Shown here: positions 11,601 through 31,234 of the stretch, piece after piece
Layout: each line of letters begins with the position of its first letter
Numbering within the stretch: the first letter of the stretch is position 1
Origin: a virus
Strand: one strand, 5' to 3'
Virus record (IMG/VR): IMGVR_UViG_3300001097_002749
Location: 1 to 33,091 of that record
DNA: 33,091 nucleotides
Position numbers and translations under genes: made by a program
Notes under the pieces: generated by a model
Database searches by the model: none
The model's input: only the letters and a program-made list of their open reading frames with translations
Told to the model about the DNA's origin: nothing

Positions 11601-12028
11601 TCGGCTTTGGTTGCTACCGCTAGTATGTTTGATGTTTTAGTAAATTCTGATAGCTCATCGCCCGTTAGCCCGGCAATGGCTGATTGAATATCGTAGGCAC
11701 TGCGCACAAACTCGGCAGAGTTACCGCCGAATTGAAAGCCAAATTCGTATGATGTTTTGGTTAGTTTTTGTAATGCGTCGTCGGCAACGCCTAATGATTG
11801 CACCTCGCCCAGCGCGGCAACATGATCAATTGCGGGGGCTAGTGATTTAGCCAGTGCGTAACCACCGCCAACGGCTGTGGCTGCGCCGCGCATCATCTGA
11901 TCTTGCGCGGCGGCTGTTTGCTGGCTCAGCTGATTAATTTTAGCCATGACTTTATTAACCGGACCCGTCACCTTGTCGATGATACCGATTGAATAATTAA
12001 GCTTGTCTAACTTGCTGAGCGTGGCCAT
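8651..12028 (-). CDS. Tail tape measure protein
   Basis: 1125 residues, the longest gene, placed right after the tail chaperone. Residues about 1-350 form the conserved TP901-type tape-measure core (A-G-L-T-G-D-E-L-S-E-F, then K-T-T-G-A-E-M-Q-A-A-F-S-N-L-G-A-T-A). Residues about 360-530 hold several hydrophobic, membrane-spanning-type helices, followed by glycine/phenylalanine-rich segments to about 640. The last 450 residues are low-complexity, rich in A, N, S, T and Q, and contain a near-perfect 54-residue duplication. A tape measure sets tail length and is expelled with the DNA; its length should scale with the tail. Confidence 0.93.
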   Translation of the reverse strand: MATLSKLDKLNYSIGIIDKVTGPVNKVMAKINQLSQQTAAAQDQMMRGAATAVGGGYALAKSLAPAIDHVAALGEVQSLGVADDALQKLTKTSYEFGFQFGGNSAEFVRSAYDIQSAIAGLTGDELSEFTKTSNILAVATKADAATITSYMGTMYGIFEKTANKMGKSNWVNQIAGQTATAVQLYKTTGAEMQAAFSNLGATATNIGLSSAQQFALVGELQLVAKSGSVAGTQAASLLQGIGKAQQSLGIQLTDDNGDMLAIDVVLGRINNRLSSLGSVARGDVLTQIFGKQGAKAVDVLSTKVDKLKDGIAVFEGVQDNSKAAEMANIIASPWDRLGGSFNAAATAMGNRLLPVVEPFVEVLASMFAGIVSLTEEFPFLSSVISVAVVGVVALMTAFGIATFAMGLYNFATGIGITLTNAQLIVTKLWQGALIALRVAGFLSLIATMGAAAIAMGTFKAVMLAGQAATWLFNAALWANPLTWIVIAAVALIAAVAALIYYFDDITAAFNEWAQSSTVFKYLKVAFDLLTLPLQLVWRLIKTIAVGVYDFFAPAFSAIGSVVMGMVNAIGSAFSYVGNLLSSFGGAITGFFSGMGSSVSGFFTGIWQSAVDIIESLINYLTETFGFLGDFFGGIASGISGIFDGVSSFISAIADNGVLNSVISFFSDDEPEKVSNKVDQVTQAVQPQTMVMQSADQAYSRDYGQSVISKANAPTPQASSQYIAPNSAVNYAAPKVTAITETEGMRTQALAEQTAANDPVYSAQPKAMTEREAAQDAFKFTSQQLPAVPTDSTAPLNLQAQARSQALINNAFPSEQNNAVTNSVINGNATSTTASNSAASAPQNNAVTLANSTASTAINEAVSSAINGPTTSIAVTNAATNAAQNNVAEVTNSAASTAINETANSTQALTALNNSAVSTTQSTAATSSAVNAVQNNVAPTAITAQPKALTEREAAQDAFKFTSQQLPAVPTDSTAPLNLQAQARSQALINNAFPSEQNNAVTVATNNITNAANSPVYSSKQAQLVSVNQGAAPEPALPSVKTDQVITNTASNSAEKAQQISAEQQATAYKPKLQKSAYLQSLTNNSSNTNNNSNSSDSSKHISIENVNFKSDDLAQSFEQMMELAG
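9030..9196 (-). repeat. Tape-measure direct repeat, copy A
   Basis: 167 bp matching 9573-9739 at all but 5 positions, 543 bp (181 codons) apart and in the same frame. It encodes the block E-R-E-A-A-Q-D-A-F-K-F-T and onward to P-S-E-Q-N-N-A-V-T. Most differences are silent. Confidence 0.95.
9573..9739 (-). repeat. Tape-measure direct repeat, copy B
   Basis: Second copy of the 167-bp block. The 376 bp between the copies encode degenerate A/N/S/T-rich repeats with recurrent A-I-N-E and A-x-Q-N-N-V/A elements. This suggests an internally duplicated 181-residue unit. Confidence 0.95.
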
Positions 12029-12032
12029 TACA

Positions 12033-12484
12033 TTACTCGCTTAGTGCTTGGCATATGCCGTTATTTACAGCAACCACAAAGTTTTCTTGCTGCTGCGTTT
12101 CGAGGTATAGCGCTTGCGCTAGGCTCTCTTGTGTGGCGGTAACCGCGCCAAAATACTTGGCGTGGTATGCCTGTAGCTGATCTAACCGAGACTTGCCTAT
12201 TTGCTTGGCTCGGTCTTCGATTTTTTTACCGTGAAATTAAACTCCGGTTGGTATTCTTCAACAATTGCGCCCACTAAAAACAATGCTGCGCCTGGCTGTT
12301 GCACTAGCTCTTTTAATTTTTTAGCGTCTTCTTGCACTACGGTGTTTAATACAAAGTTAGTTGCCGGCTGCACTTTGCTGTTTGGCTGCGTAGAGTTGAT
12401 GTATTTGTTGTAATCGGCTGCGTTTACGTTAAATGTAATTTCGCCTACCGGTGTTTCTAATGTGATTTTTTTCTCGAACGCCAT
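12033..12484 (-). CDS. Tail assembly chaperone -1 frameshift fusion (gpGT-type)
   Basis: Reading slips from frame 0 to -1 at the heptamer A-AAA-AAA (12227-12221). The -1 frame is then open for 62 codons to a TAA at 12035-12033, giving an 88 + 62 = 150-residue product. The extension reads I-E-D-R-A-K-Q-I-G-K and on to Q-A-L-S-E, ending 4 bases before the tape-measure ATG. Six nucleotides after the slip site the RNA can form a 6-bp stem (ACCGAG/CTCGGT; plus 12209-12214 with 12185-12190, 18-nt loop), a typical stimulator. Without slippage the 160 bases before the tape measure would be empty. The extension lacks its own start codon and Shine-Dalgarno. Confidence 0.82.
12197..12484 (-). CDS. Tail assembly chaperone, short (gpG-type) form
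   Basis: 95 residues, acidic, starting with K-K-I-T-L-E-T-P-V-G-E-I-T-F. It lies immediately upstream of the tape measure, where tail chaperones are found in nearly all long-tailed phages. The end of the gene carries A-AAA-AAA in the correct frame for -1 slippage (12227-12221). The short form is expected in excess and binds the tape measure during tail assembly. It follows the candidate endolysin gene after 2 bases. Confidence 0.75.
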   Translation of the reverse strand: MAFEKKITLETPVGEITFNVNAADYNKYINSTQPNSKVQPATNFVLNTVVQEDAKKLKELVQQPGAALFLVGAIVEEYQPEFNFTVKKSKTEPSK

Positions 12485-18224: not shown

Positions 18225-19106
18225 TTACAAGCAGTTGCTGTATTTGCCTTCGTCGCCTTCGTGCTCTTCGTCGGCGTTGGTTGTGTCACCCGCAGGTGTT
18301 TTTAATGCTTTGGCAAACTTTTCGTTAAGTTCGTCAAGCGCTACTTTTGTGCTTGATAGCTCTTCTTTAAGCTTTGTTAGCTCGGCTGACTCTTCGGCTG
18401 GCGGGGCTGTTTCTTCTTCGCCTTCCACTTTAGTGGTTGAGAATGAATCAAGCTTTGTGGTTAGGCCGTCTAGCTTTTTGCCAAACTCTTCAAGCGGTGC
18501 GCCGAGTGCATCTTTTAATGCATTGGCTAATTGTGTTTCGTTCATGTCGGGTTCTTCCTTAGTGAATAGTCGTTTGAAAAAGGGTTTTTTAGGTGTGTCG
18601 ATAGGCTCACATGACCCTAAGTCAACGGTTAATAAAGAGACTTCCGTGTCGTCTGCTTTGCTCTTACTACTGAAATGAATGCGGTCGGTGTAGCAGCTTG
18701 CTGGGTAGTCGGTAACTGCTAGGCCGGTTAGGTAGGTTTTGCCAGTGCCCATGAAGTCGCGGCTAATTTCGATGCTAAAATATACGGCTTGGTCGGCTTT
18801 GTTTAATGCTACAAACCCTTGATTGGGCGCGAGCACGGCGTATAGGCACACTACGCCTTCTTCGTTTTCGTATGCTTCTACACTTACTACGTCGCCTAGC
18901 ATTCCTGGTATGTCTACGTTGTGTAGGTTTTTAGCTGCCCAGCCTGACCAGTTAAATTCGTGATCAAGATTTATGCGTGCGCCGTATTTGCGGGGGTTGT
19001 AGGTTTCTACTATGTCGGCTACGTCTTGCTCTGTTATTTCGCGGCCGTCGACGGTCATGCCAACGGCGGCAATTGATAATGGTTTTGTGCGTAGTTGACC
19101 TGACAT
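18225..19106 (-). CDS. Capsid scaffold / serine protease, P2 gpO-like
   Basis: 293 residues. The N-terminal half is the protease, with D-H-E-F-N-W near 45-50 and Y-F-S-I-E-I-S near 107-113 supplying the expected His and Ser elements of the gpO family. Residues about 175-265 form the acidic coiled-coil scaffold core (repeated K-x-x-L-x-S/E). Residues 270-293 are highly acidic. The protein shapes the procapsid, cleaves itself and the capsid, and leaves. It is the first gene of the minus-strand late operon. Confidence 0.9.
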   Translation of the reverse strand: MSGQLRTKPLSIAAVGMTVDGREITEQDVADIVETYNPRKYGARINLDHEFNWSGWAAKNLHNVDIPGMLGDVVSVEAYENEEGVVCLYAVLAPNQGFVALNKADQAVYFSIEISRDFMGTGKTYLTGLAVTDYPASCYTDRIHFSSKSKADDTEVSLLTVDLGSCEPIDTPKKPFFKRLFTKEEPDMNETQLANALKDALGAPLEEFGKKLDGLTTKLDSFSTTKVEGEEETAPPAEESAELTKLKEELSSTKVALDELNEKFAKALKTPAGDTTNADEEHEGDEGKYSNCL

Positions 19107-19298
19107 ATAAACAAACCTTTTAAATGTTTTTTAATTAAGCTTAATGCTTTAAAGTAACTGCAGTTTGCACCCTCCTTTTGCACCTTTCCAACGGTTTAAC
19201 TTTTTGAAATTCCTATATTTAACTTTTAGGAATGGGCAGGTTTTTAACAAACAGATTACGTGCTTTATTACTAATACACTGCCGCCATGGATTAATTA
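19107..19298. promoter_or_regulatory. Divergent late-promoter region with inverted repeat
   Basis: 192 AT-rich bases between the two divergent late operons. An inverted repeat ATTCCT-N13-AGGAAT sits at 19209-19233, and a short direct repeat (TTTGCACC) lies at about 19166-19188. In P2 the same gap carries the Ogr-activated promoters. I do not see a P2-type TGT-N12-ACA activator box. These repeats are therefore the best candidates for binding the late activator. Confidence 0.45.
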
Positions 19299-21083
19299 AT
19301 GTGGCGCAATATGAAGGCTAACTACGGACCAGACGTACGCAAAAAAGCACGGGATTTGTATGTTGTTGAGGGCTATACCTACGAGGAAATAGCCGATTTA
19401 GCAGGCATGCCAAGTGCGCGCAGTGTTAGGCGCTGGTCTGAGTCTGAGAACTGGGCGGACATGTGCCCAACGTATAATGCCGAAATGGCGTATAGCCGCC
19501 GCATTAATCTGTTAGCTGACAAAGACAATAAAACCGATGCTGAATATAAAGAGCTAGACTTTTGCACGCGCCAGCTGTGTGCGCTTAATAAAAGCAAGCT
19601 TGCACCTGCCCCTAAGCAACGCGCTAACAATGACGATGCTATTGCTGGCAATAGTGGCGGCAGTGGCAAAAAATCGAAGAAGAAAAAGAAAAATGATTGC
19701 TCTGGCATTACGCTTGAAATGCTTGACGAGCTTAAAGACAAGCTTCTTTATCCCCACCAAAAACATTGGTTTGAAAACCAAGATCACCGCACCCGCTTTA
19801 TTTTAAAGCCCCGGCAAATTGGGGCTACTTTTTACTTTGCGTTTGAAGCGTTTTACGACGCGGTTATTAATGGCCGCAATAAAATATTTATATCGGCGAG
19901 CCGTGATCAGGCTGAGGTATTTAAAGCCAATATTGTGGCGCTGGTGCGTGAGCATTTTAATGTTGAGCTGACCGGTTCGCCAATGGTGCTTAATTTGGCT
20001 GGCGGCAAAACTGTTAAGCTTATTTTTAAAAGCACTAATGCGCGTACTGCTCAGTCGGAAAGCGGCGACCTATATATAGATGAAGTTTTTTGGATTCCTA
20101 AATATAAGAGCTTGCGCGGCTTGGCGCAGGCTATGGCAACGCATAAGCATTTACGAATAACCTATTTTAGTACGCCGAGCGTTACGAGCCATGAAGCGTA
20201 TGATCACTGGAACGGAAAGTGGTACCGCAAAACAAAAGCATGTAACGACCCTGAGTTTGCGATTGATGTTAGCCATAAAAGTTTAAAAAATGGCAGGCTT
20301 TGCGATGATGGCATTTGGCGACAAATACTTACTGTGTACGATGTGGTTACTAGCGGGTTTGACCGCATTGATATTGGCGTGCTTGAAAACGAGTACAGTG
20401 TAGATGAGTTTAATAACTTGTTTATGTGTAAGTTTATTGATGATGCGCACAGTGCGTTTAACCTTAAACAGCTTATGAACTGCGTGGGCGATTCGACCAA
20501 GTGGCCTGACTTTGATTTAGATTACGAACGCCCTTACGGGTTAAAGCCGGTGGTTATTGGTTTTGACCCTGCGCGGTTTGGCGACAAAGCGAGCGTAGCT
20601 ATTTTAAGTGCGCCAATGAAGCCTGGCGAAAAGTTTTTGCTGCTTGAAGCAATTGATTTAAGCGGCAATGATTTTGAAGCGATGGCCAGCGAAATAAAAC
20701 TGCTTACCGAAAAATACAACGTTGTGCACATTGGCGTTGATACCACTGGTATTGGTTACGGCGTGTGGGAGCTTATTACTAAGTTTTACCCTAACGCTGA
20801 GCCAATACATTACAACCCTATTATTAAAAACCGTATGGTTATTAAAGCAATTAACGTTATTCAAAACCGACGCCTTGAGTTTGACCAGGACGCGGTAAAC
20901 ATTGCTAGCTCGTTTATTAATATTCGCCGCAAAGTTGTTGGTGACCAAATTACATATGCTACTAACCGCACGGCCACTACGGGCCATGCCGATATTGCGT
21001 GGGCAATTATGCACGGCTTATTATTCGAACCACTAGACGGCAACGCCCATAGCCGCCAAACATCTGTAGGAATTGCAGCTTAA
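19299..21083 (+). CDS. Terminase large subunit (ATPase/nuclease), P2 gpP-like
   Basis: 594 residues. A helix-turn-helix (about 22-50; Y-T-Y-E-E-I-A-D-L-A-G-M-P) is followed by a lysine-rich linker at 122-132. The ATPase has R-Q-I-G-A-T (172-177) as the Walker A-like loop and L-Y-I-D-E (258-262) as Walker B. The nuclease has G-F-D-P-A-R-F-G (421-428) with its first metal-binding Asp. It packages DNA into the head with the gpM-like subunit. An in-frame ATG at 19311 is an equally good start. Transcribed away from the capsid genes, as P2 genes P-Q are. Confidence 0.93.
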   Translation: MWRNMKANYGPDVRKKARDLYVVEGYTYEEIADLAGMPSARSVRRWSESENWADMCPTYNAEMAYSRRINLLADKDNKTDAEYKELDFCTRQLCALNKSKLAPAPKQRANNDDAIAGNSGGSGKKSKKKKKNDCSGITLEMLDELKDKLLYPHQKHWFENQDHRTRFILKPRQIGATFYFAFEAFYDAVINGRNKIFISASRDQAEVFKANIVALVREHFNVELTGSPMVLNLAGGKTVKLIFKSTNARTAQSESGDLYIDEVFWIPKYKSLRGLAQAMATHKHLRITYFSTPSVTSHEAYDHWNGKWYRKTKACNDPEFAIDVSHKSLKNGRLCDDGIWRQILTVYDVVTSGFDRIDIGVLENEYSVDEFNNLFMCKFIDDAHSAFNLKQLMNCVGDSTKWPDFDLDYERPYGLKPVVIGFDPARFGDKASVAILSAPMKPGEKFLLLEAIDLSGNDFEAMASEIKLLTEKYNVVHIGVDTTGIGYGVWELITKFYPNAEPIHYNPIIKNRMVIKAINVIQNRRLEFDQDAVNIASSFINIRRKVVGDQITYATNRTATTGHADIAWAIMHGLLFEPLDGNAHSRQTSVGIAA

Positions 21084-23109: not shown

Positions 23110-23355
23110 CTAGCGATTTTTCCAATCAAGCTCTTTTACTTTTTCAACCTTCCCCGCCGTGACCTCAAGACGCTTAAGTGCTCTTGTTAAATTTGGGCTT
23201 TTTACGCTATTAAGTAACGCGGCATTTGTTTTACCAATGCCGCGAACTAAGTAGTCGCTAAGCGCCGATTTTATATCTTCACTGGTACTTTTACCAAACG
23301 ACAAAAGCACATCTAATCGCTCTTGGCTTTGCGAGCCTTTATATAAATACTTCAT
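23110..23355 (-). CDS. PapB/adhesin-type transcriptional regulator-like protein
   Basis: 81 residues. The pattern S-F-G-K-S-T-S-E-D-I-K-S-A-L-S-D-Y-L-V-R-G near 20-40, then helix-turn-helix-like residues about 42-62 and a final V-E-K-V-K-E-L-D-W, resembles the PapB family of adhesin regulators (family resemblance by eye). It is the only minus-strand gene in this stretch, transcribed away from ogr and convergent with the spanins. An 18-bp near-palindrome lies just before its start and may serve autoregulation. Confidence 0.5.
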   Translation of the reverse strand: MKYLYKGSQSQERLDVLLSFGKSTSEDIKSALSDYLVRGIGKTNAALLNSVKSPNLTRALKRLEVTAGKVEKVKELDWKNR

Positions 23356-23636: not shown

Positions 23637-23672
23637 TTGTAACGCACTCAACCACTGTATATAATGACAGTG
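23637..23672 (+). promoter_or_regulatory. ogr promoter overlapped by a LexA-type SOS box
   Basis: A sigma-70 promoter with -35 TTGTAA (23637-23642), 17-bp spacer and a perfect -10 TATAAT (23660-23665) stands 34 bp before the ogr ATG. Overlapping the -10 is CACTGT-N8-ACAGTG (23653-23672). Its 6-bp arms are perfect inverted repeats that fit the gammaproteobacterial LexA consensus CTGT-N8-ACAG. Confidence 0.78.
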
Positions 23673-23698: not shown

Positions 23699-23944
23699 AT
23701 GGCGCGGGTTACTTGTCCAAATTGCGAAGCTAAAGCTACGATTACATCGCGTGAAACGCAAAGCGCGCACGTAGTAAATTTATATTGTTCGTGTACTAAT
23801 ACTCGTGAATGCGGGGCAACGTTTCGCATTACCCAATCGTTCGATCACTTCTTAAACCCTCCGGTACAAACCACACAGCAATTAGCCGCTGCACTTATTA
23901 AAAGCCTACCTCGCGAACAACAATTGGAATTAGTTGGGCTATAG
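23699..23944 (+). CDS. ogr: Ogr/Delta-type zinc-finger late transcription activator
   Basis: 81 residues from the ATG at 23699. A TTG at 23687 would add four residues, but the family start M-A-R-V-T-C-P-N-C fits the ATG. It has a zinc site C-P-N-C (6-9), then C-S-C (29-31) and C-G-A-T-F-R (37-42), the Ogr/Delta pattern. These proteins contact RNA polymerase alpha and activate P2-type late promoters. The gene has its own promoter with a LexA-type box and a strong terminator, unlike P2, where ogr follows gene D. Confidence 0.88.
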   Translation: MARVTCPNCEAKATITSRETQSAHVVNLYCSCTNTRECGATFRITQSFDHFLNPPVQTTQQLAAALIKSLPREQQLELVGL

Positions 23945-24005: not shown

Positions 24006-24371
24006 TTACTGTCTGCGCTGGTTATATTGTGACTGGTTTTGCTGTGGCGCATTTTGCGGCTGTTCATACTGCCCTTGATATTGCGGCGGTGCGTAACCTT
24101 GGCTTTGGTTTTGTGGCTGGTTATTGTGCGTTTGGCTTTGCTGGCTTTCACTTTCCCAAAATATATATAGTTTTAACGGGCCTTGTTGATTAATTGGCAT
24201 AGTGTCGAGTTCTATTTCAATGCTATCGCTGCCGCCTTGGTTGTTACTCGGCCATTTAGTGGCACGACCTAAAGTAGCGTAACGGTTTTTGGTTTCGTTG
24301 CCTTGCTGGTATTTTTCGGCAATACAAGCAACACGGCCTTTATCTAGTGGTTTGTTATTTTGTGGGTGCAT
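24006..24371 (-). CDS. Hypothetical early protein with Q/N-rich tail
   Basis: 121 residues. Residues 1-75 form a compact beta-rich domain (K-G-R-V-A-C-I-A-E-K-Y and P-L-K-L-Y-I-F-W). Residues 76-121 are almost wholly Q, N, P, S and Y, a disordered tail like that of single-strand DNA-binding proteins. It is the last gene of the early operon, after the replication gene. An accessory replication role is possible but not shown by any motif. The 97 bases upstream show no gene. Confidence 0.5.
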   Translation of the reverse strand: MHPQNNKPLDKGRVACIAEKYQQGNETKNRYATLGRATKWPSNNQGGSDSIEIELDTMPINQQGPLKLYIFWESESQQSQTHNNQPQNQSQGYAPPQYQGQYEQPQNAPQQNQSQYNQRRQ

Positions 24372-24468
24372 AGTGCGATTCCTTTTTGTTTAATGTTTTA
24401 TTTAATGATTTGTGTTTTACAACTGAGTGATACACCCAGTTGCGACGCTTAACGTTTGGTTTCATTGA

Positions 24469-24867
24469 TCACCATAATTCGCTTAATTCTTTTTCTAACT
24501 GCATTTGCGCTAAGCGCTCTTCTAGCAGTTCGCGGGTTGACTTGCTGCGCTGCTGGTATTGCGGGCGCGGCTCTTGGTTTTCGTGGTGCGGCATTTTAGC
24601 CGGTGCACTTACTGTTTTTGGTGAAACAATTCGCGCTTTTTTAGTACTTGGCTTTGCTGTTGTTTTTATTTGCCCGGTGCGAAATTTATATTCTTTTCGC
24701 TCGCAACCGCAGCCCTGGACATGACCTAAATTATCTTTGCGTACTACGCGAGTAGTGCCGCATACGCATTTACACATAAAATGCTGCACCCCTCGGTTGC
24801 GGCGGTCTTCGTTTAATACTGTCCAATTATTGAAAACGTCACCCGCCGTTACTTTACCTGTTGCCAC
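24469..24867 (-). CDS. Small Cys-rich DNA-binding-like protein
   Basis: 132 residues, starting at GTG 24867 with AGAGGAG 7 bases upstream. N-terminal W-T-V-L-N-E-D followed by C-K-C-V-C-G (32-37), then V-V-R-K-D-N-L and G-C-G-C (52-55). This Cys-rich beta unit often precedes AP2/HNH-type DNA-binding regions in phages. The rest is a basic linker and a terminal Q/E-rich helix (about 108-132). The function is not established. Confidence 0.55.
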   Translation of the reverse strand: MATGKVTAGDVFNNWTVLNEDRRNRGVQHFMCKCVCGTTRVVRKDNLGHVQGCGCERKEYKFRTGQIKTTAKPSTKKARIVSPKTVSAPAKMPHHENQEPRPQYQQRSKSTRELLEERLAQMQLEKELSELW

Positions 24868-24870
24868 TGG

Positions 24871-25023
24871 CTACTCCTCTTCGGTTCTTTTTGTTCTTTT
24901 TTCTGGCAACGTGTTGTCATGCACTGCATCACCCAACCAAATAAATGAACGCCCTAATGCATTAAGTATTTGCATTATTGGATGCGCTATAATGTTGTGT
25001 ACCCACCAATTTTTATAAAGCAT
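24871..25023 (-). CDS. Small membrane-associated early protein
   Basis: 50 residues from the ATG at 25023, chosen because GGGAG stands 8 bases upstream. A start further upstream would run deep into the neighbouring gene. It contains N-W-W-V-H-N-I-I-A-H-P-I-M-Q-I-L, a short amphipathic or membrane segment seen in small phage proteins of unknown function, and a charged tail. It overlaps the preceding gene by 11 bases. Confidence 0.5.
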   Translation of the reverse strand: MLYKNWWVHNIIAHPIMQILNALGRSFIWLGDAVHDNTLPEKRTKRTEEE

Positions 25024-25297
25024 GGCTATCACTCCCAACCAATAAGCTTGGGCGCTTAAATAGCAATGCGGCATTTTGTAACTGGTCAATAGTGACTCTG
25101 CGGCCATCAATAGCGACGACTTTAATTTTGCTCACTGGGTCGTTTTCTTCAATAATTTCGTAGCGTGAGTTCTTTTTAATATTTTCAATACTGCGCTTAC
25201 CATCTTTTAGCGACTCGCCAAAGGCATGGCCTAGCATTCCTGCGGTATAAAATAACCCGGTTGAAAGCATTTTTTCGGCTGCTGATTGTGTGTTCAT
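25013..25297 (-). CDS. Hypothetical early protein
   Basis: 94 residues that I do not recognise. A hydrophobic stretch at about 11-27 (L-S-T-G-L-F-Y-T-A-G-M-L-G-H-A-F) is too polar for a certain membrane span, and the rest is basic. The ATG overlaps the Cys-rich gene stop (ATGA), marking coupled translation. No motif allows a function. Confidence 0.5.
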   Translation of the reverse strand: MNTQSAAEKMLSTGLFYTAGMLGHAFGESLKDGKRSIENIKKNSRYEIIEENDPVSKIKVVAIDGRRVTIDQLQNAALLFKRPSLLVGSDSHAL

Positions 25298-25560
25298 AAT
25301 GTCACCTGCTGTTTTGGTTGTGGTCTGTTGGTTACTGTAAATACGTTGGCGTTAGGTTCTTGCTGATAACCGGTGCAAATTTCGGTAGCAAAAACGCTGT
25401 TATTGGTTTTACCGCACTGGCCGTATTGGGTTTTAGGCGCGGGCTTATCGAATTTTGTAACAAACGGGCTATGCTGATCATCTGCAAAACCTTTTGGGCA
25501 AAATGCCTGGCAACTAATACATGCCTTTGGCATTAATACTTTTGAAATTTGAATAGTCAT
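25294..25560 (-). CDS. Small Cys-containing early protein
   Basis: 88 residues from the ATG at 25560, preceded by TAGGAG 5 bases away; the longer reading frame has no such site. C-I-S-C-Q-A-F-C at 14-21 and two further Cys (near 48 and 61) could bind a metal. It directly follows the replication gene (8 bases between stop and start) and overlaps the next gene by 4 bases. The family is unknown to me. Confidence 0.55.
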   Translation of the reverse strand: MTIQISKVLMPKACISCQAFCPKGFADDQHSPFVTKFDKPAPKTQYGQCGKTNNSVFATEICTGYQQEPNANVFTVTNRPQPKQQVTL

Positions 25561-25568
25561 ATTTTCTC

Positions 25569-28049
25569 CTACGCCATTAAATCGAGTGACCACCAATCGT
25601 TATCGCTGATTGCTGATGCACTGCCTTGTTTAACTAAATTAACTAGGTCCCAATCGCCAATAGTGACTAGGCCGCGTTCGTTTGTGGTGGTATTAAGTGA
25701 TTTACGCCCATCGAGCTGCGCGTATTTATAAGCAAGCTCTACAAATTCGCGTGCTTGTTGCCAATGCGCGTCGGTTATGTGCCAGCTAGCTGATTTTTGC
25801 GCGAGTGTTTGCGCTCGGTATTCAATATCGAGCTGCTTGTTTTGCTTAAGCTGGGCGCTTTCGTCTAATGTATGTAACTGGCCATCGCGAATTTGATAAA
25901 TTAGCCCGTTTCTACTGATCCTTTTTCCGCTATTTAGATCACTTACCAGATCATCAAGGTCGGTTTTTGATAAACCCACGGCATCAAGTAACAACTCAGC
26001 TCTAGAGCCTGCGGCTATAGGCGTACAGTTATTACCACTAGTCCAAGATAGGTCGGCTGCGCCGACGTTGGTGTTGCCCTTAGCACTGAGTTTTTCGGCT
26101 GTGCCCTTGAGTTGTCTTGTCCATTCGATAAGGCGCGTTTTTAAGCTGGTGTCGGCAATTACGTTATGCACGTTTTCTAGCGTGCGCTTAAGTACGGCTT
26201 TGTAGTCGGTATTCGTAAGCACGCCCTTAATGCGGCGCACTACTTCGGCGTAGTCGTTGCCTTGCGGGGTTAGCTCATACATTGATTTAAAGTTAGCAGC
26301 GCGGCCAATACACATACCGCCTTGTAATTTTACGTAGTCTTTCCAATTGGCAGTGTCGGCAGCGTGGCGAATAGGCTCTATTACGTCGTCACTTATTGCA
26401 GTGCGCATGCGTCTAAGCTCGCGGTAAACGGTAACGCTTGGCGAACCCTGAAATTGAAACTGGCGAATATTCCACGTACTAGCCCAGGCTAAAACGGGGT
26501 TAGCTTGCTCTTGCAGGTTTTCGCCTGTTTCAGCATCTTCATGATCGCCTAGCATGTAACCATCAATATTTTTACTGATGTATTTAGCAATGTAGCTGGC
26601 CGCACTGCCTTTGCTTTTATCCATTGTTATGGCGTCAAAGCGTGGGCTAAATGTGCGATAAAACTTACTAGGCGCTTTGGCTTTTTTGCCTTGGCTTTTT
26701 TTAAGGCCCCACTCGCGGCGCTTTTGTTTGTAGGTTTTAAACAGCTCGCTTTTTTTAGTGCCTGCGCGATAGCTAACGCACTTTTCAACAGTTTGAACGT
26801 GTACGCCATGGGTGTTTATATCTACCCATTCGGTAACTACTTTGGCGCGAGTTGCTACTGGGCCGTAGTAATCGTAAAGCTCTGTTTTGTCTTCTTGAAT
26901 AAAGTACCAACGCAAAATAGCGTTTACTTCTTGCAGTTTGTTTTTTGGCATAAATAACATCATGTGCCAATGCGGGCACCCGTCAGCATGTGGCTCTACA
27001 ACACGCACGCCAAAATACTTAAGGCCACGGCGGTTTAATTTAGAACGAGCACGCGCCCATGTTTGGGTTAAATAATTTTGCGCGTCTTTCGGAGTTTCGC
27101 CATTCCATTTACTTGAATTAGCATGAAAACGCGACGGGCACGTAATAGTGTAAAACACACCTACATAACCCATTTCGTCGGCTAGCTCTTCGGTTTCGCG
27201 TATGCGTAGCATTAATTCGTTACGGCGGTTGGCTGGGTTTGCCATGCCGCTTTTAACCGCTTCAATTAAACTTATTACGTCGCCATCGCTGCTTTGTAAT
27301 TCCATCATTTCTAAAAACTGGCGGCCGCTGGCTTGGGCAAAGTTAAACTCACGCTGCGCTTGTTTTGACGAATACGGGCTAATGCCTTTACGTTTAAACT
27401 TTTTGCTTTTTTTATCGTGGTATAGGTCTTTGCCCACTTGGCCGGTGGCAATTTCTAGCAATTCTAAAAACTGGCGGCGTAGGGTTTTTAATTGGCGTGC
27501 CCACCACTTATCGCACTGCATTTTAAGCAGTGCAATTTCGTAGCATTCGGTTGGTAAGCTTTCTTCGCGCATAGCGTAAAAGGGTACGTTAGCACCCACA
27601 GCTTTAGCGTGATCAGCTATTACATCGTAGGTTAACGATACTATTTTTTCATAAGGTAGGTGCTGGTGCTCTTCGCTTACATCAAGCGCAATTTGCAGGC
27701 ATTCAATAGCTAGCGTATTTGCATGCTTTTTGGTTTTTTCAATACTGCTTAAAATATGCCATGGCAATGGCATATTTTGAGTAATACTAAACAACACGCC
27801 AAAGCGTGGCTTTAAACGACCAATAACACGGCGCAACCATGTATTAGCGCGGTATTCGCTACCCGCTTTTTTTTGGTTGTAACGGTCAATATATTTGCGG
27901 GCCATTCTGCTTTGCAGCGGAACGGGCACAGCCTGCAGGCCGCGCGCTAAAAAGTTACGATTATCAATATCGCTAATAGACGTAATTAAGCCCTCGGCTA
28001 CACTAGATAGTCTAAGGGCTTTTAGGTCAATTGGTTGCGGGTTAGCCAC
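25569..28049 (-). CDS. Replication initiation endonuclease, P2 gpA-like (HUH)
   Basis: 826 residues from a GTG at 28049. The HUH motif P-H-W-H-M at 359-363 and paired tyrosines Y486 and Y490 (Y-I-A-K-Y) identify a rolling-circle nickase of the phage replication gene A family. The upstream R-G-L-K-Y-F-G-V-R-V-V-E strand is also conserved. In P2 the protein nicks an origin inside its own gene and joins the ends. Length is close to that of P2 gpA (about 760). It follows a small unknown gene after 4 bases and has only a weak Shine-Dalgarno, implying coupling. Confidence 0.9.
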   Translation of the reverse strand: MANPQPIDLKALRLSSVAEGLITSISDIDNRNFLARGLQAVPVPLQSRMARKYIDRYNQKKAGSEYRANTWLRRVIGRLKPRFGVLFSITQNMPLPWHILSSIEKTKKHANTLAIECLQIALDVSEEHQHLPYEKIVSLTYDVIADHAKAVGANVPFYAMREESLPTECYEIALLKMQCDKWWARQLKTLRRQFLELLEIATGQVGKDLYHDKKSKKFKRKGISPYSSKQAQREFNFAQASGRQFLEMMELQSSDGDVISLIEAVKSGMANPANRRNELMLRIRETEELADEMGYVGVFYTITCPSRFHANSSKWNGETPKDAQNYLTQTWARARSKLNRRGLKYFGVRVVEPHADGCPHWHMMLFMPKNKLQEVNAILRWYFIQEDKTELYDYYGPVATRAKVVTEWVDINTHGVHVQTVEKCVSYRAGTKKSELFKTYKQKRREWGLKKSQGKKAKAPSKFYRTFSPRFDAITMDKSKGSAASYIAKYISKNIDGYMLGDHEDAETGENLQEQANPVLAWASTWNIRQFQFQGSPSVTVYRELRRMRTAISDDVIEPIRHAADTANWKDYVKLQGGMCIGRAANFKSMYELTPQGNDYAEVVRRIKGVLTNTDYKAVLKRTLENVHNVIADTSLKTRLIEWTRQLKGTAEKLSAKGNTNVGAADLSWTSGNNCTPIAAGSRAELLLDAVGLSKTDLDDLVSDLNSGKRISRNGLIYQIRDGQLHTLDESAQLKQNKQLDIEYRAQTLAQKSASWHITDAHWQQAREFVELAYKYAQLDGRKSLNTTTNERGLVTIGDWDLVNLVKQGSASAISDNDWWSLDLMA

Positions 28050-28053
28050 AGCG

Positions 28054-28332
28054 TTACAGCTCTATTTCCATTGGCTCACCGCCAATTTGCACAGCATTTA
28101 ATGCAATGCTCATTTGGCTGTAAACGCCTTCAAAATTAACGTCATCGTCTGCAATCATTTTTACTATAGGCAACAAGTCGGTTAGCGTGTCTTCGCACTG
28201 CATTAACATGCCAATGGTGCTGCGTTTGTTTAAATTTCTAATTGCAAAATTAACTTGCTCAATAGCGTGTAAAACAATGCTAAGTAGTAATTGCTTATTT
28301 TTAGGCATAGCTTGGTCTTTGATAGCGTTCAT
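28054..28332 (-). CDS. Hypothetical early protein
   Basis: 92 residues, helical, with leucine/isoleucine-rich stretches (about 14-35 and 45-62) and an acidic C terminus. AAGGA stands about 10 bases before the ATG. It immediately precedes the replication initiator, so it may be a replication accessory such as a P2 gpB-like helicase loader, but no supporting motif is seen. Confidence 0.5.
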   Translation of the reverse strand: MNAIKDQAMPKNKQLLLSIVLHAIEQVNFAIRNLNKRSTIGMLMQCEDTLTDLLPIVKMIADDDVNFEGVYSQMSIALNAVQIGGEPMEIEL

Positions 28333-28351
28333 TTTTTAGTGTCCTTGGGGG

Positions 28352-28675
28352 TTAAAATGGAATGTCGTTTAAAAATTCGTTTAAGTCTTCGCTTGGGTAT
28401 TCCGTTTGTAATTCATCCATTTGATAGTAAGTATCTAAAAAGCTTTCTGACTCACTCTCAAGATGGATTGAATATTCTGCGCCTAAGTAAAGCCACCAAC
28501 CATTAGGTATTGTCCTAAATGATGCGTCAATTCGCTTTGCAATTTTTGGCGCGTACTTTTTTAAGTCGCATAATGCATTTAGCACTTTTTGAAAATCACA
28601 CTTTGCTATATCGCGCTCTTTTCTGCATGCGTTGTAATAGCTAAGTGCGGCTTTTGCTTTTGGGTGTAGTTTCAT
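28352..28675 (-). CDS. Hypothetical early protein
   Basis: 107 residues, basic N-terminal helix (K-A-K-A-A-L-S-Y-Y-N-A-C-R-K-E-R-D) and an acidic C-terminal half with G-W-W-L-Y-L-G and S-I-H-L-E-S-E-S-E-S. Not recognised. GGGAG lies 11 bases before the ATG. It is 19 bp from both the methyltransferase gene and the next gene. Confidence 0.5.
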   Translation of the reverse strand: MKLHPKAKAALSYYNACRKERDIAKCDFQKVLNALCDLKKYAPKIAKRIDASFRTIPNGWWLYLGAEYSIHLESESESFLDTYYQMDELQTEYPSEDLNEFLNDIPF

Positions 28676-28694
28676 TTTTAGCAGCTCCCAGCGG

Positions 28695-29285
28695 TTAAAT
28701 TACAAAAAGCTCAGGCGCTAACTCATGGCCTTTGCAAAATACAAAGTGGGCGTATTCGGTTGAATCGGCTTTACTTGGTTTAGCTGGGTCAAAGCCCGGG
28801 CGCTTGCTATGCACATAAATCGCCGCTAATGGCAGCTTTTGCCACATTGCCTTGCGCTTTTGGCTACCCAACCAATTTAGGCGTTGCAGCATGATCACTA
28901 AGCCGTCCTCTTTAACTATTTCAAGCGCATGTTCTGTAAATTCTTGTGCTACGTTAAACGGCGGGTTTGTTATGATCATGTCGTATTTAGGCAATAATGC
29001 GCTCGGGACGTTTAAAAAGTTAACGCCTTTTAAGTTGGCGCGTGAGTCCTCGCGAATGTCCCAGCTTTCAACATTAAAGCCGTGCTTTTCTAATACCGTT
29101 GGGTAGCTCATTTCGTACTTATCACAACCGCCAGCGCTTGGGTCTAGCACTAGCGGGTTTTCATCTGGCGAGCAAGCCAACACATTGTTTTCAGCAAACG
29201 CTGCTAAAAAATCTTCAATCAACCAATGCGGTGTTATGTAGTAGTCTTCGGCATTGCGTACCGTTCCGCGATTTAATGAACTCAT
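28695..29285 (-). CDS. Phage DNA N6-adenine methyltransferase
   Basis: 196 residues. Motif I is L-D-P-S-A-G-G (47-53), which binds S-adenosylmethionine, and the catalytic motif is N-P-P-F (107-110), characteristic of adenine-N6 enzymes. No restriction nuclease lies nearby, so this is an orphan. Such phage enzymes may shield the DNA from host restriction or regulate replication. It starts 2 bases after the stop of the previous gene. The target sequence cannot be predicted. Confidence 0.85.
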   Translation of the reverse strand: MSSLNRGTVRNAEDYYITPHWLIEDFLAAFAENNVLACSPDENPLVLDPSAGGCDKYEMSYPTVLEKHGFNVESWDIREDSRANLKGVNFLNVPSALLPKYDMIITNPPFNVAQEFTEHALEIVKEDGLVIMLQRLNWLGSQKRKAMWQKLPLAAIYVHSKRPGFDPAKPSKADSTEYAHFVFCKGHELAPELFVI

Positions 29286-29287
29286 GA

Positions 29288-29674
29288 TCAGCCCTTGGTA
29301 ATTGTTAAATGTGAATAGTTGGTATTGGCAGGCTCAACCGGTGCATGTTGCACAAATTTAGCGGGGGCCATTGCGTTAGCGTCGGTAAATGCTTTTACTA
29401 ATTGCTCCATTTGCAAAATAGCCTTGTGTATTTTTAAGCGGGCTTCTGCATCAAAATTAGCAAAGCCACTTTCTAAATGATGGCGCTTTAAACCTGCTGC
29501 AAAACATACCAATGTGCGCTCTTGCGGGCTTAATACTTTGTTGTAAACGTACTCTGGCATGTGGCGCTCGCTGCCCATTAATGCTTTTATTTCGGCCAAT
29601 CCTTTTGGTACGTGGCGGTCAGTTACTGCTTTTAATGGTGCTGGGTTTGGGTAGTTAATAGCTGTGTTTGCCAT
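29288..29674 (-). CDS. Hypothetical early protein
   Basis: 128 residues, no family recognised. The central part (about 45-90) is helical with L-S-P-Q-E-R-T-L-V-C-F-A-A-G-L. The N- and C-terminal ends are rich in A, P and T. The ATG follows the previous stop within 2 bases, in the middle of the early operon. Confidence 0.5.
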   Translation of the reverse strand: MANTAINYPNPAPLKAVTDRHVPKGLAEIKALMGSERHMPEYVYNKVLSPQERTLVCFAAGLKRHHLESGFANFDAEARLKIHKAILQMEQLVKAFTDANAMAPAKFVQHAPVEPANTNYSHLTITKG

Positions 29675-29676
29675 GA

Positions 29677-29949
29677 TTAATTAACTCCTTGCTGGCTGCG
29701 TGTTGCTGCATTTAGGTAATTAGTTGCTTGTGTTTTTAACCAGAAAACTGCTTTTTGTATTGTTTGGTACTCGTCACCTGCGCAATAAACTGGTAAGTCA
29801 AAATCACCAACACGCGCTTGAAACACTGGGTCAAAACCAAACACCGCTTTGCGGGTAGTAATTTTACAGCTAAGCAAATAGCGGCATTGCTCTGCTAATG
29901 TTTTAAAACTGCTTAACGTTTCTCTGCTAAATACTTGGTATGTGCTCAT
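29677..29949 (-). CDS. Hypothetical early protein
   Basis: 90 residues from the ATG at 29949, with AGGAG 7 bases upstream; the longer reading frame would overlap the AlpA-like gene by 47 bases and lacks this site. It contains C-R-Y-L-L-S-C-K and V-Y-C-A-G-D-E-Y-Q-T-I-Q. Not recognised. Co-transcribed with the AlpA-like and Cro-like genes. Confidence 0.55.
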   Translation of the reverse strand: MSTYQVFSRETLSSFKTLAEQCRYLLSCKITTRKAVFGFDPVFQARVGDFDLPVYCAGDEYQTIQKAVFWLKTQATNYLNAATRSQQGVN

Positions 29950-29959
29950 TGCCCTGCTC

Positions 29960-30235
29960 CTAGTTATTAACTTGTTTATTGCCGTAAATTTCCTGAAACT
30001 TCTCACTGCCTAACCGCATAAACTCTTCAATATCTGCTTCAAGCCATACAACACGGCCGCTCGATATTTTATGTGTTTTAGGAAACTGCCCTTTATCCAT
30101 CAACCGATATAACGATGTGCGGTGCATGCCGCACTTTTGCGCCACGTCTGCAGGGCGTAAATAGCGGTCGTTTATTGTTACCACTTCACCACGTACATTG
30201 CGGCGGTAATGATCTGCTGCGATTAACTGGCTCAT
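29960..30235 (-). CDS. AlpA-family regulator / excisionase-like (Cox-like)
   Basis: 91 residues. The MerR-like winged helix of the AlpA family is clear: L-R-P-A-D-V-A-Q-K-C-G-M-H-R-T-S-L-Y-R-L-M (26-46), then F-P-K-T-H-K-I and W-L-E-A-D-I-E-E-F. Such proteins act as excisionase or early regulator (Cox position in P2-like phages). It overlaps the Cro-like gene by 4 bases. Confidence 0.8.
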   Translation of the reverse strand: MSQLIAADHYRRNVRGEVVTINDRYLRPADVAQKCGMHRTSLYRLMDKGQFPKTHKISSGRVVWLEADIEEFMRLGSEKFQEIYGNKQVNN

Positions 30236-30456
30236 GCTGCACTCTCCTTGTCGTCTTTTACGTGGTCGGCTAGCAGGTCTGCTACCGTTACTTGGCCGTT
30301 TGTTAGCTCTGAAATACGGGTAATGTATTTCGCTGGGGCTTGGCCGAACTTATTCATCCAATCCCAAACCGAACCTTGGGAAACTCCCAGCTTTTTACCA
30401 AGCTTTGTCTGCCCCCCTATTATTTTTACTGCTTTTTCTATGTTTGATTGTTTCAT
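30232..30456 (-). CDS. Cro/YdaS-like repressor
   Basis: 74 residues with one helix-turn-helix (G-G-Q-T-K-L-G-K-K-L-G-V-S-Q-G-S-V-W-D-W, 14-33) of the YdaS/Cro kind. It is the first gene of the early operon, divergent from the CI-like gene and controlled by the shared operators. GGAG stands 8 bases before the ATG. Expected to repress the cI promoter and so lock in lytic growth. Confidence 0.8.
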   Translation of the reverse strand: MKQSNIEKAVKIIGGQTKLGKKLGVSQGSVWDWMNKFGQAPAKYITRISELTNGQVTVADLLADHVKDDKESAA

Positions 30457-30470
30457 TTCTAGGCTCCAAA

Positions 30471-30528
30471 CTGTTTATAGCAGTATTTAATACTGTTAAT
30501 AACAGTTTGTCAACACCGTTAAAAACAG
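30471..30528. promoter_or_regulatory. Three CI/Cro-type operators with the early promoter
   Basis: Near-palindromic 13-mers of form CTGTTA-N-TAACAG stand at 30471-30483, 30493-30505 (perfect) and 30516-30528, spaced 22 and 23 bp. The early promoter reads leftward: -35 TTGACA at 30513-30508 and -10 TTAAAT at 30490-30485 with a 17-bp spacer. The perfect operator lies between -35 and -10, and the others flank the promoter. A weaker rightward promoter (TTGTCA at 30507-30512, near TACTAT) overlaps face to face. Confidence 0.72.
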
Positions 30529-30556
30529 TAATACTATGAACTGTACAAAATAAATA

Positions 30557-30613: not shown

Positions 30614-31234
30614 ATGAGCGTTGGCGAAAGAATTAAAAAAAGAAGAGTGGAACTTGGCCTTACTCAGGCCAACTTGGCTGAGCTGGCAGGGATCATTCAG
30701 CAGTCATTGCAAAAAATTGAAAGCGGCTCAACTAAAAACCCGCGCAACCTAAAGGCCTTGGCTGACGCACTTGACTGCACCCCTGAATTTTTACAGTTTG
30801 GGATAGCTGAAAGCATTAATAGCAACGTTTCACCAGGGCCTGACATTAAATCAACTGTGCCGCTTATTAGCTGGGTTCAAGCGGGCGCATGGAGTGAAAT
30901 AAACGAGATACGCGAATGCGACGCTGAACGCTTTATGTGCCCAGTTAACGCAAGCAGTAAAACGTTTGCCCTGCGGGTGCAAGGCGTAAGCATGGAGCCT
31001 AAGTTTTACGAGGGTGATTTGATATTTGTAGATCCTGAGGCAGAGTGTATTCACGGCTCTTACGTAGTAGCACGTTTAGACGACGACAACCACGCCACAT
31101 TTAAACAGCTAATAATTGAAAGTGGCCACAAGTTTTTAAAAGCAGCTAACCCCAATTGGCCTGAGCAACTAATACCGATAAACGGCAATTGTACGTTGGT
31201 GGGTAAAGTGGTGTTTGCTGGAAAGTCGTTTTAG
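30614..31234 (+). CDS. CI-type prophage repressor, LexA-like with S24 peptidase domain
   Basis: 206 residues. Residues 5-60 hold the helix-turn-helix (L-T-Q-A-N-L-A-E-L-A-G-I-I-Q-Q-S-L-Q-K-I-E). The cleavage site is A90-G91, and catalytic S126 (G-V-S-M-E-P) and K164 (A-T-F-K-Q-L) form the S24 dyad. Activated RecA should cause self-cleavage, releasing the early promoter upon DNA damage. Faces the Cro-like gene across the operator region. Confidence 0.93.
   Translation: MSVGERIKKRRVELGLTQANLAELAGIIQQSLQKIESGSTKNPRNLKALADALDCTPEFLQFGIAESINSNVSPGPDIKSTVPLISWVQAGAWSEINEIRECDAERFMCPVNASSKTFALRVQGVSMEPKFYEGDLIFVDPEAECIHGSYVVARLDDDNHATFKQLIIESGHKFLKAANPNWPEQLIPINGNCTLVGKVVFAGKSF

Follow-up and report, generated by a model that had tools for sequence, protein, structure and literature searches.

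Control of temperate phages by the host SOS repressor LexA is already known for phage antirepressors, for early promoters and for one unrelated late promoter. LexA times phage induction through the Gifsy antirepressors (PMC7067206) and through rstA/rstR in CTXphi (PMC3323433), and in the Bacillus phage GIL01 host LexA represses lytic transcription from P1 and from the late promoter P3 (PMC6182141). P2 itself is not SOS-inducible (PMC10612066). The record of phage 186 places LexA at p95/tum, which bears out the statement, made in a first-pass annotation of the DNA studied here, that the target of LexA in 186 is the antirepressor Tum. The phage ACA1 has a repressor without a cleavage domain, and in the paper on it LexA-type control comes up for no products other than gp1, which is Tum-like, and gp4, an S24 protein (PMC10612066). 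No earlier report of LexA at an ogr or B gene was found in the openly accessible literature that was searched. The feature described here is a LexA-type box on the late activator gene of a large group of P2-like phages from marine and aquatic bacteria, with Pseudoalteromonas, Vibrio, and Aeromonas as hosts. It was found in the window, by which we mean the whole 33,091-nucleotide stretch of viral DNA that was analyzed, and it was then followed through related loci.

The ogr promoter of the window

The ogr gene of the window encodes a product with an Ogr/Delta zinc-finger domain (PF04606, E 4.5e-13). Its ATG, at 23699, is located 26 bp downstream of a palindrome that covers the -10 element and spacer of the promoter. 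The elements of this region are as follows.

23637–23642, plus strand: -35 element TTGTAA of the ogr promoter (sequence; TTG kept in 33-35 of 35 relatives)
23653–23672, plus strand: LexA-type box CACTGT-N8-ACAGTG, over the -10 element and the spacer (sequence, conservation, matrix)
23660–23665, plus strand: -10 element TATAAT, inside the box (sequence; invariant or nearly so in 35 relatives)
23699–23944, plus strand: ogr, late transcription activator, 81 aa (Ogr_Delta PF04606, phrog_603)
24006–30456, minus strand: early operon (YdaS/Cro-like first gene, AlpA-like gene, replication protein A), convergent with ogr

The full box at 23653-23672 reads CACTGTATATAATGACAGTG, with ATATAATG as the inner 8 bases between two perfect 6-bp arms. 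Its CTGT-N8-ACAG core, at 23655-23670, overlaps the polymerase binding site (TATAAT) of the ogr promoter, and a 17-bp spacer separates TATAAT from TTGTAA, which on reading matches TTGACA at 4 of 6 positions. Direct reading agrees with the first-pass annotation on both points of anatomy, namely the perfect arms and a perfect TATAAT at the correct spacing under the box. Because the early operon runs toward ogr from the opposite side, it supplies no ogr transcripts, and this convergent arrangement means that ogr expression is decided by its own promoter. A small gene on the minus strand (23110-23355) is located between the lysis genes and ogr; its matches to PapB-type regulators and to phrog_10566, a 'transcriptional regulator', are both below threshold.

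In the 33,091 bases of the window, CTGT-N8-ACAG occurs once, on ogr. The number expected by chance is 0.32 per window and the pattern was present in 24 of 100 shuffles; the bare pattern alone is thus weak and unremarkable, and this count is what speaks for a chance palindrome surrounding a good -10 element. A matrix of host sites was also applied. Built from twelve Pseudoalteromonas boxes (those of lexA, recA, recN, an ImuA-like gene, integron-integrase-like genes, and others), it gives the ogr box a score of 19.1 and the runner-up place in the window 10.8. In 100 order-1 random windows the best place scored 10.1 at the median, 14.7 at the 95th percentile, and 18.7 at most, so that the ogr box outscores the best site of every one of them, although such scores are a guide and no proof because some of the training sites were themselves picked by pattern. 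When an idealized 20-mer was scanned at 3 mismatches, no match was obtained, and the ogr box is therefore not a perfect consensus. The fit to the LexA consensus claimed at first pass holds at the level of the CTGT-N8-ACAG core and of the matrix of host SOS-type boxes.

Conservation of the box and its match to host SOS boxes

Conservation in relatives is much stronger evidence than single-window statistics. Viral contigs and genomes yielded 59 loci with related ogr genes, 56 of which are Pseudoalteromonas loci with a close ogr (78-99% identical). An exact CTGT-N8-ACAG is present in 54 of these 56 (54/59 overall), nearly always as CTGTATATAATNACAG and 41-46 bases upstream of the ATG. Removal of near-duplicates left 35 non-redundant ogr promoters. 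Of the 16 columns of the box, 15 show the same base in 34 or more of these promoters. The remaining inner column accepts all four bases, and host SOS boxes vary at this column too. At the -35 element, TTG is kept at the expected distance, and the DNA farther upstream of the box has diverged. Some Pseudoalteromonas relatives carry an extra strong LexA-type box, located in L013 at 19907, ahead of a UmuD-like S24 gene, and in ACA1 (L218) at 20523, in the stretch preceding the S24-only gene gp4.

The box is also found on ogr in other phage lineages. In K139-like Vibrio phages it is present in 47 of 54 loci, mostly as CTGTAYAAAAAYACAG, at 63-66 bases upstream of ogr, and in phiO18P-like Aeromonas phages it is exact in 54 of 80 loci and has at most one mismatch in all 80. 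The box covers the -35 element in both of these groups, as opposed to the -10 element in the Pseudoalteromonas group, and the K139 record annotates promoter P13 at the box position with no LexA site marked there. Close to the ATG, as in the window, is where the box is found in a further small branch of Ogr (L546, L547, L574). No box was found on ogr in 80 loci from relatives of 186 or in 78 loci from relatives of a Pseudomonas phage. That the same recognition sequence recurs at a position shifted between groups suggests that LexA control was kept, as opposed to one ancestral promoter. The column-by-column conservation over 35 promoters, the occurrence of the box on ogr at another promoter position in other lineages, and the matrix score above all 100 random windows contradict a chance origin, which is extremely unlikely.

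Some loci of these groups show further features. A phiO18P-related subgroup (L368-L383) has a weakened box at the same place, e.g., CTGTATAGAGATCCAG, and these are possibly low-affinity or decayed LexA sites. K139 (L305) has a second strong LexA-type box at 11766-11785, ahead of orf12 (11806-12051; phrog_5581). Most K139-like loci have this second box at the same place, and the small gene there is convergent with ogr. It is only a guess that orf12 could be a candidate LexA-controlled antirepressor with a Tum-like role.

As the virus record comes without a host genome, host boxes were taken from Pseudoalteromonas genomes with close relatives of the phage. LexA of Pseudoalteromonas has an E. coli-type DNA-binding domain, including the recognition helix, and CTGT-N8-ACAG is present in the lexA, recA, and recN promoters of the host, the genus of which is taken from the relatives; the lexA box is CTGTATATACTCACAG. 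The sequence CTGTATATANNNACAG occurs in 6-9 copies per host genome, with 0 copies of the reversed control, and a prophage ogr is among the hits in three of four host genomes. UmuD/LexA-type S24 genes are typical SOS targets, and in other viral contigs this same 16-mer is located ahead of such genes. Plasmids searched with the ogr promoter gave no match. Resemblance to the consensus is to be read with care, as in V. cholerae several LexA-consensus-related sequences were negative in gel shift (PMC5963079). With these points considered, the palindrome very probably serves LexA, the SOS repressor of the host, as an operator. The placement of the late activator under LexA, as proposed at first pass, has the strongest backing of all readings from the comparison of relatives, with the box as a predicted operator.

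The phage repressor, the late genes and other readings of the box

Other regulators of the phage could in principle recognize a palindrome at this position. The following features of the window bear on these readings.

30470–30529, no strand: three 15-bp candidate CI operators of ACTGT-N5-ACAGT type (repeats of the CI-cro region)
30614–31234, plus strand: CI-like S24 repressor, probably RecA-cleavable (Peptidase_S24, cleavage residues)
18225–19106, minus strand: gene O (scaffold/protease), first gene of the leftward late arm (position, homology to ACA1 gp27)
19210–19232, no strand: dyad TTCCTA-N11-TAGGAA between the divergent late genes O and P, candidate Ogr target (conservation)
19299–21083, plus strand: gene P (large terminase), first gene of the rightward late arm (position, homology to ACA1 gp26)

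The repressor is a LexA-type S24 protein (Peptidase_S24, E 4.4e-27) in which an Ala-Gly bond (VQAGAW), a serine (GVSMEP), and a lysine (ATFKQL) are placed as in RecA-cleavable repressors. With the domain, the bond, and both residues all present, the earlier assertion that this CI-like repressor is RecA-cleavable appears sound. The candidate CI operators have a LexA-like half-site, ACTGT, at a spacing of 5 bp versus 8 bp, and it may be that the phage repressor and host LexA recognize the same half-site.

The palindrome could thus be conceived as a site at which the phage is regulated by its own CI, after the model of 186 pB. There is precedent in 186, where by record annotation CI represses the ogr homologue B at pB, and the half-site ACTGT is common to the CI-region repeats of the window. 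These repeats, however, have N5 and not N8, and the box does not follow the repressor. With repressor types set at 70% identity (over the first 65 residues for S24 repressors), the S24 repressors of the Pseudoalteromonas relatives fall into six types, while other relatives have repressors without S24; their CI-cro regions differ widely in sequence and the ogr box is unchanged throughout. The K139 group likewise has 16 CI types (70% identity) with a constant ogr box, and its CI regions are without the box, except for one outlying locus whose ogr has none. Since the repressor types vary with different operators and the box is constant, the box is not expected to be the CI operator. This reading, rejected on the spacing and on the constancy of the box, is very unlikely.

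An alternative possibility is that the palindrome is a site of Ogr itself, used in autoregulation, or of another conserved phage regulator. P2-type Ogr sites are dyads too, and the box accompanies ogr in several lineages. Against this, the late promoter region carries a different conserved dyad, TTCCTA-N11-TAGGAA, which is missing from the ogr promoters. It reads TTCCTATATTTAACTTTTAGGAA at 19210-19232, occurs once in the window, and is kept between two sets of Pseudoalteromonas phages despite an identity of only ~41% between their P proteins. Because this different dyad marks the late promoter, the box is probably not Ogr's own site, and self-binding is disfavored. Furthermore, with its overlap of either the -10 or the -35 element the box is placed as for a repressor, and CTGT-N8-ACAG is the LexA pattern of the host. 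A site for Ogr or a second phage regulator is very unlikely indeed. The O/P dyad is instead the natural candidate for the Ogr target, unlike the P2 type; none of the regions listed has the P2-type TGT-N12-ACA ahead of its terminase gene. Separately, structural genes have been swapped relative to the window in L001, L005, L006, L010, L012, L016, L020, L033, and others, with terminases that are ~41% identical but with an unchanged ogr and O/P dyad.

Proposed circuit and comparison with known systems

What the sequences show directly is where the box is located, that it is conserved through different repressor types and lineages, and that it resembles the SOS boxes of the host; from here on, we infer LexA binding, repression of ogr, and induction by damage. 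In a lysogen, LexA on the box would cover the -10 element and the spacer of the ogr promoter, and the late activator would be silent. Upon DNA damage, RecA on single-stranded DNA would bring about LexA self-cleavage and ogr would be transcribed, after which Ogr would turn on both divergent late arms, probably from the O/P dyad as its putative target. As the S24 repressor is of the self-cleaving type, the same damage signal should also cleave it and free the early (replication) operon, giving the early and late arms separate SOS inputs. As anatomy, the double SOS gate put forward by the first-pass annotation is present, in the form of an S24 repressor plus a LexA-type box on ogr. With such a box directly over the ogr promoter, virus assembly is probably wired to the host damage alarm. 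The ogr box is retained where the repressor of the phage has changed: ACA1 and K139 have the box yet lack a cleavable repressor, the CI of K139-like phages being a 186-type protein without an S24 domain, and LexA control of ogr would therefore be wider than the double gate. If confirmed, virion production in common aquatic prophages would be set directly by host SOS status, and SOS control would extend to prophages whose repressor is not RecA-cleavable.

On infection of an undamaged cell, ogr expression could possibly come from leakage or from SOS induction by rolling-circle replication of the phage. The latter leads to a doubtful but conceivable proposal, that LexA on ogr serves in every lytic cycle as a sensor of phage DNA replication for late transcription. 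The A protein would start rolling-circle replication, the resulting single-stranded DNA would carry RecA filaments, LexA would fall, and Ogr would be made only at that point. If true, the late genes would depend on host RecA and on a cleavable LexA also upon infection of undamaged cells, and the sensor would be a host-based answer to the coupling of P2-type late transcription and replication. If confirmed, LexA control of ogr would also make an SOS link between phage replication and late transcription open to a clear test.

Operator control of ogr by host LexA, as predicted here, can be set beside the systems described above. P2 has a homologous late-gene activator, ogr, with its own promoter, as does the window phage; the P2 ogr promoter is without a LexA-type box, unlike that of the window, in line with the first-pass statement that P2 ogr is outside SOS control. 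Phage 186 is closer, being P2-like with an ogr homologue, B, whose own promoter is silent in the lysogen, and with host LexA as the damage input (record annotation). In 186, however, LexA is at p95/tum and CI is at pB, whereas in the window the LexA-type box is on the late activator. A Tum/DinI protein had no match among the early proteins of the window that were scanned, and a 186-type circuit, with a LexA box on a Tum/DinI antirepressor gene, was not encountered, the sole box being on ogr. The K139 and phiO18P groups share the CTGT-N8-ACAG box on the ogr promoter with the window, and differ from it in having the box at -35 instead of -10 and a CI of the 186 type instead of S24. GIL01 is similar to the proposal made here in that host LexA acts on lytic transcription including a late promoter, but there LexA is the lysogeny repressor, with the cofactor gp7 and tandem boxes, in an unrelated phage with no Ogr. 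Lastly, while the targets in Gifsy and CTXphi are antirepressors or replication/repressor genes, the target in the window is the late activator.
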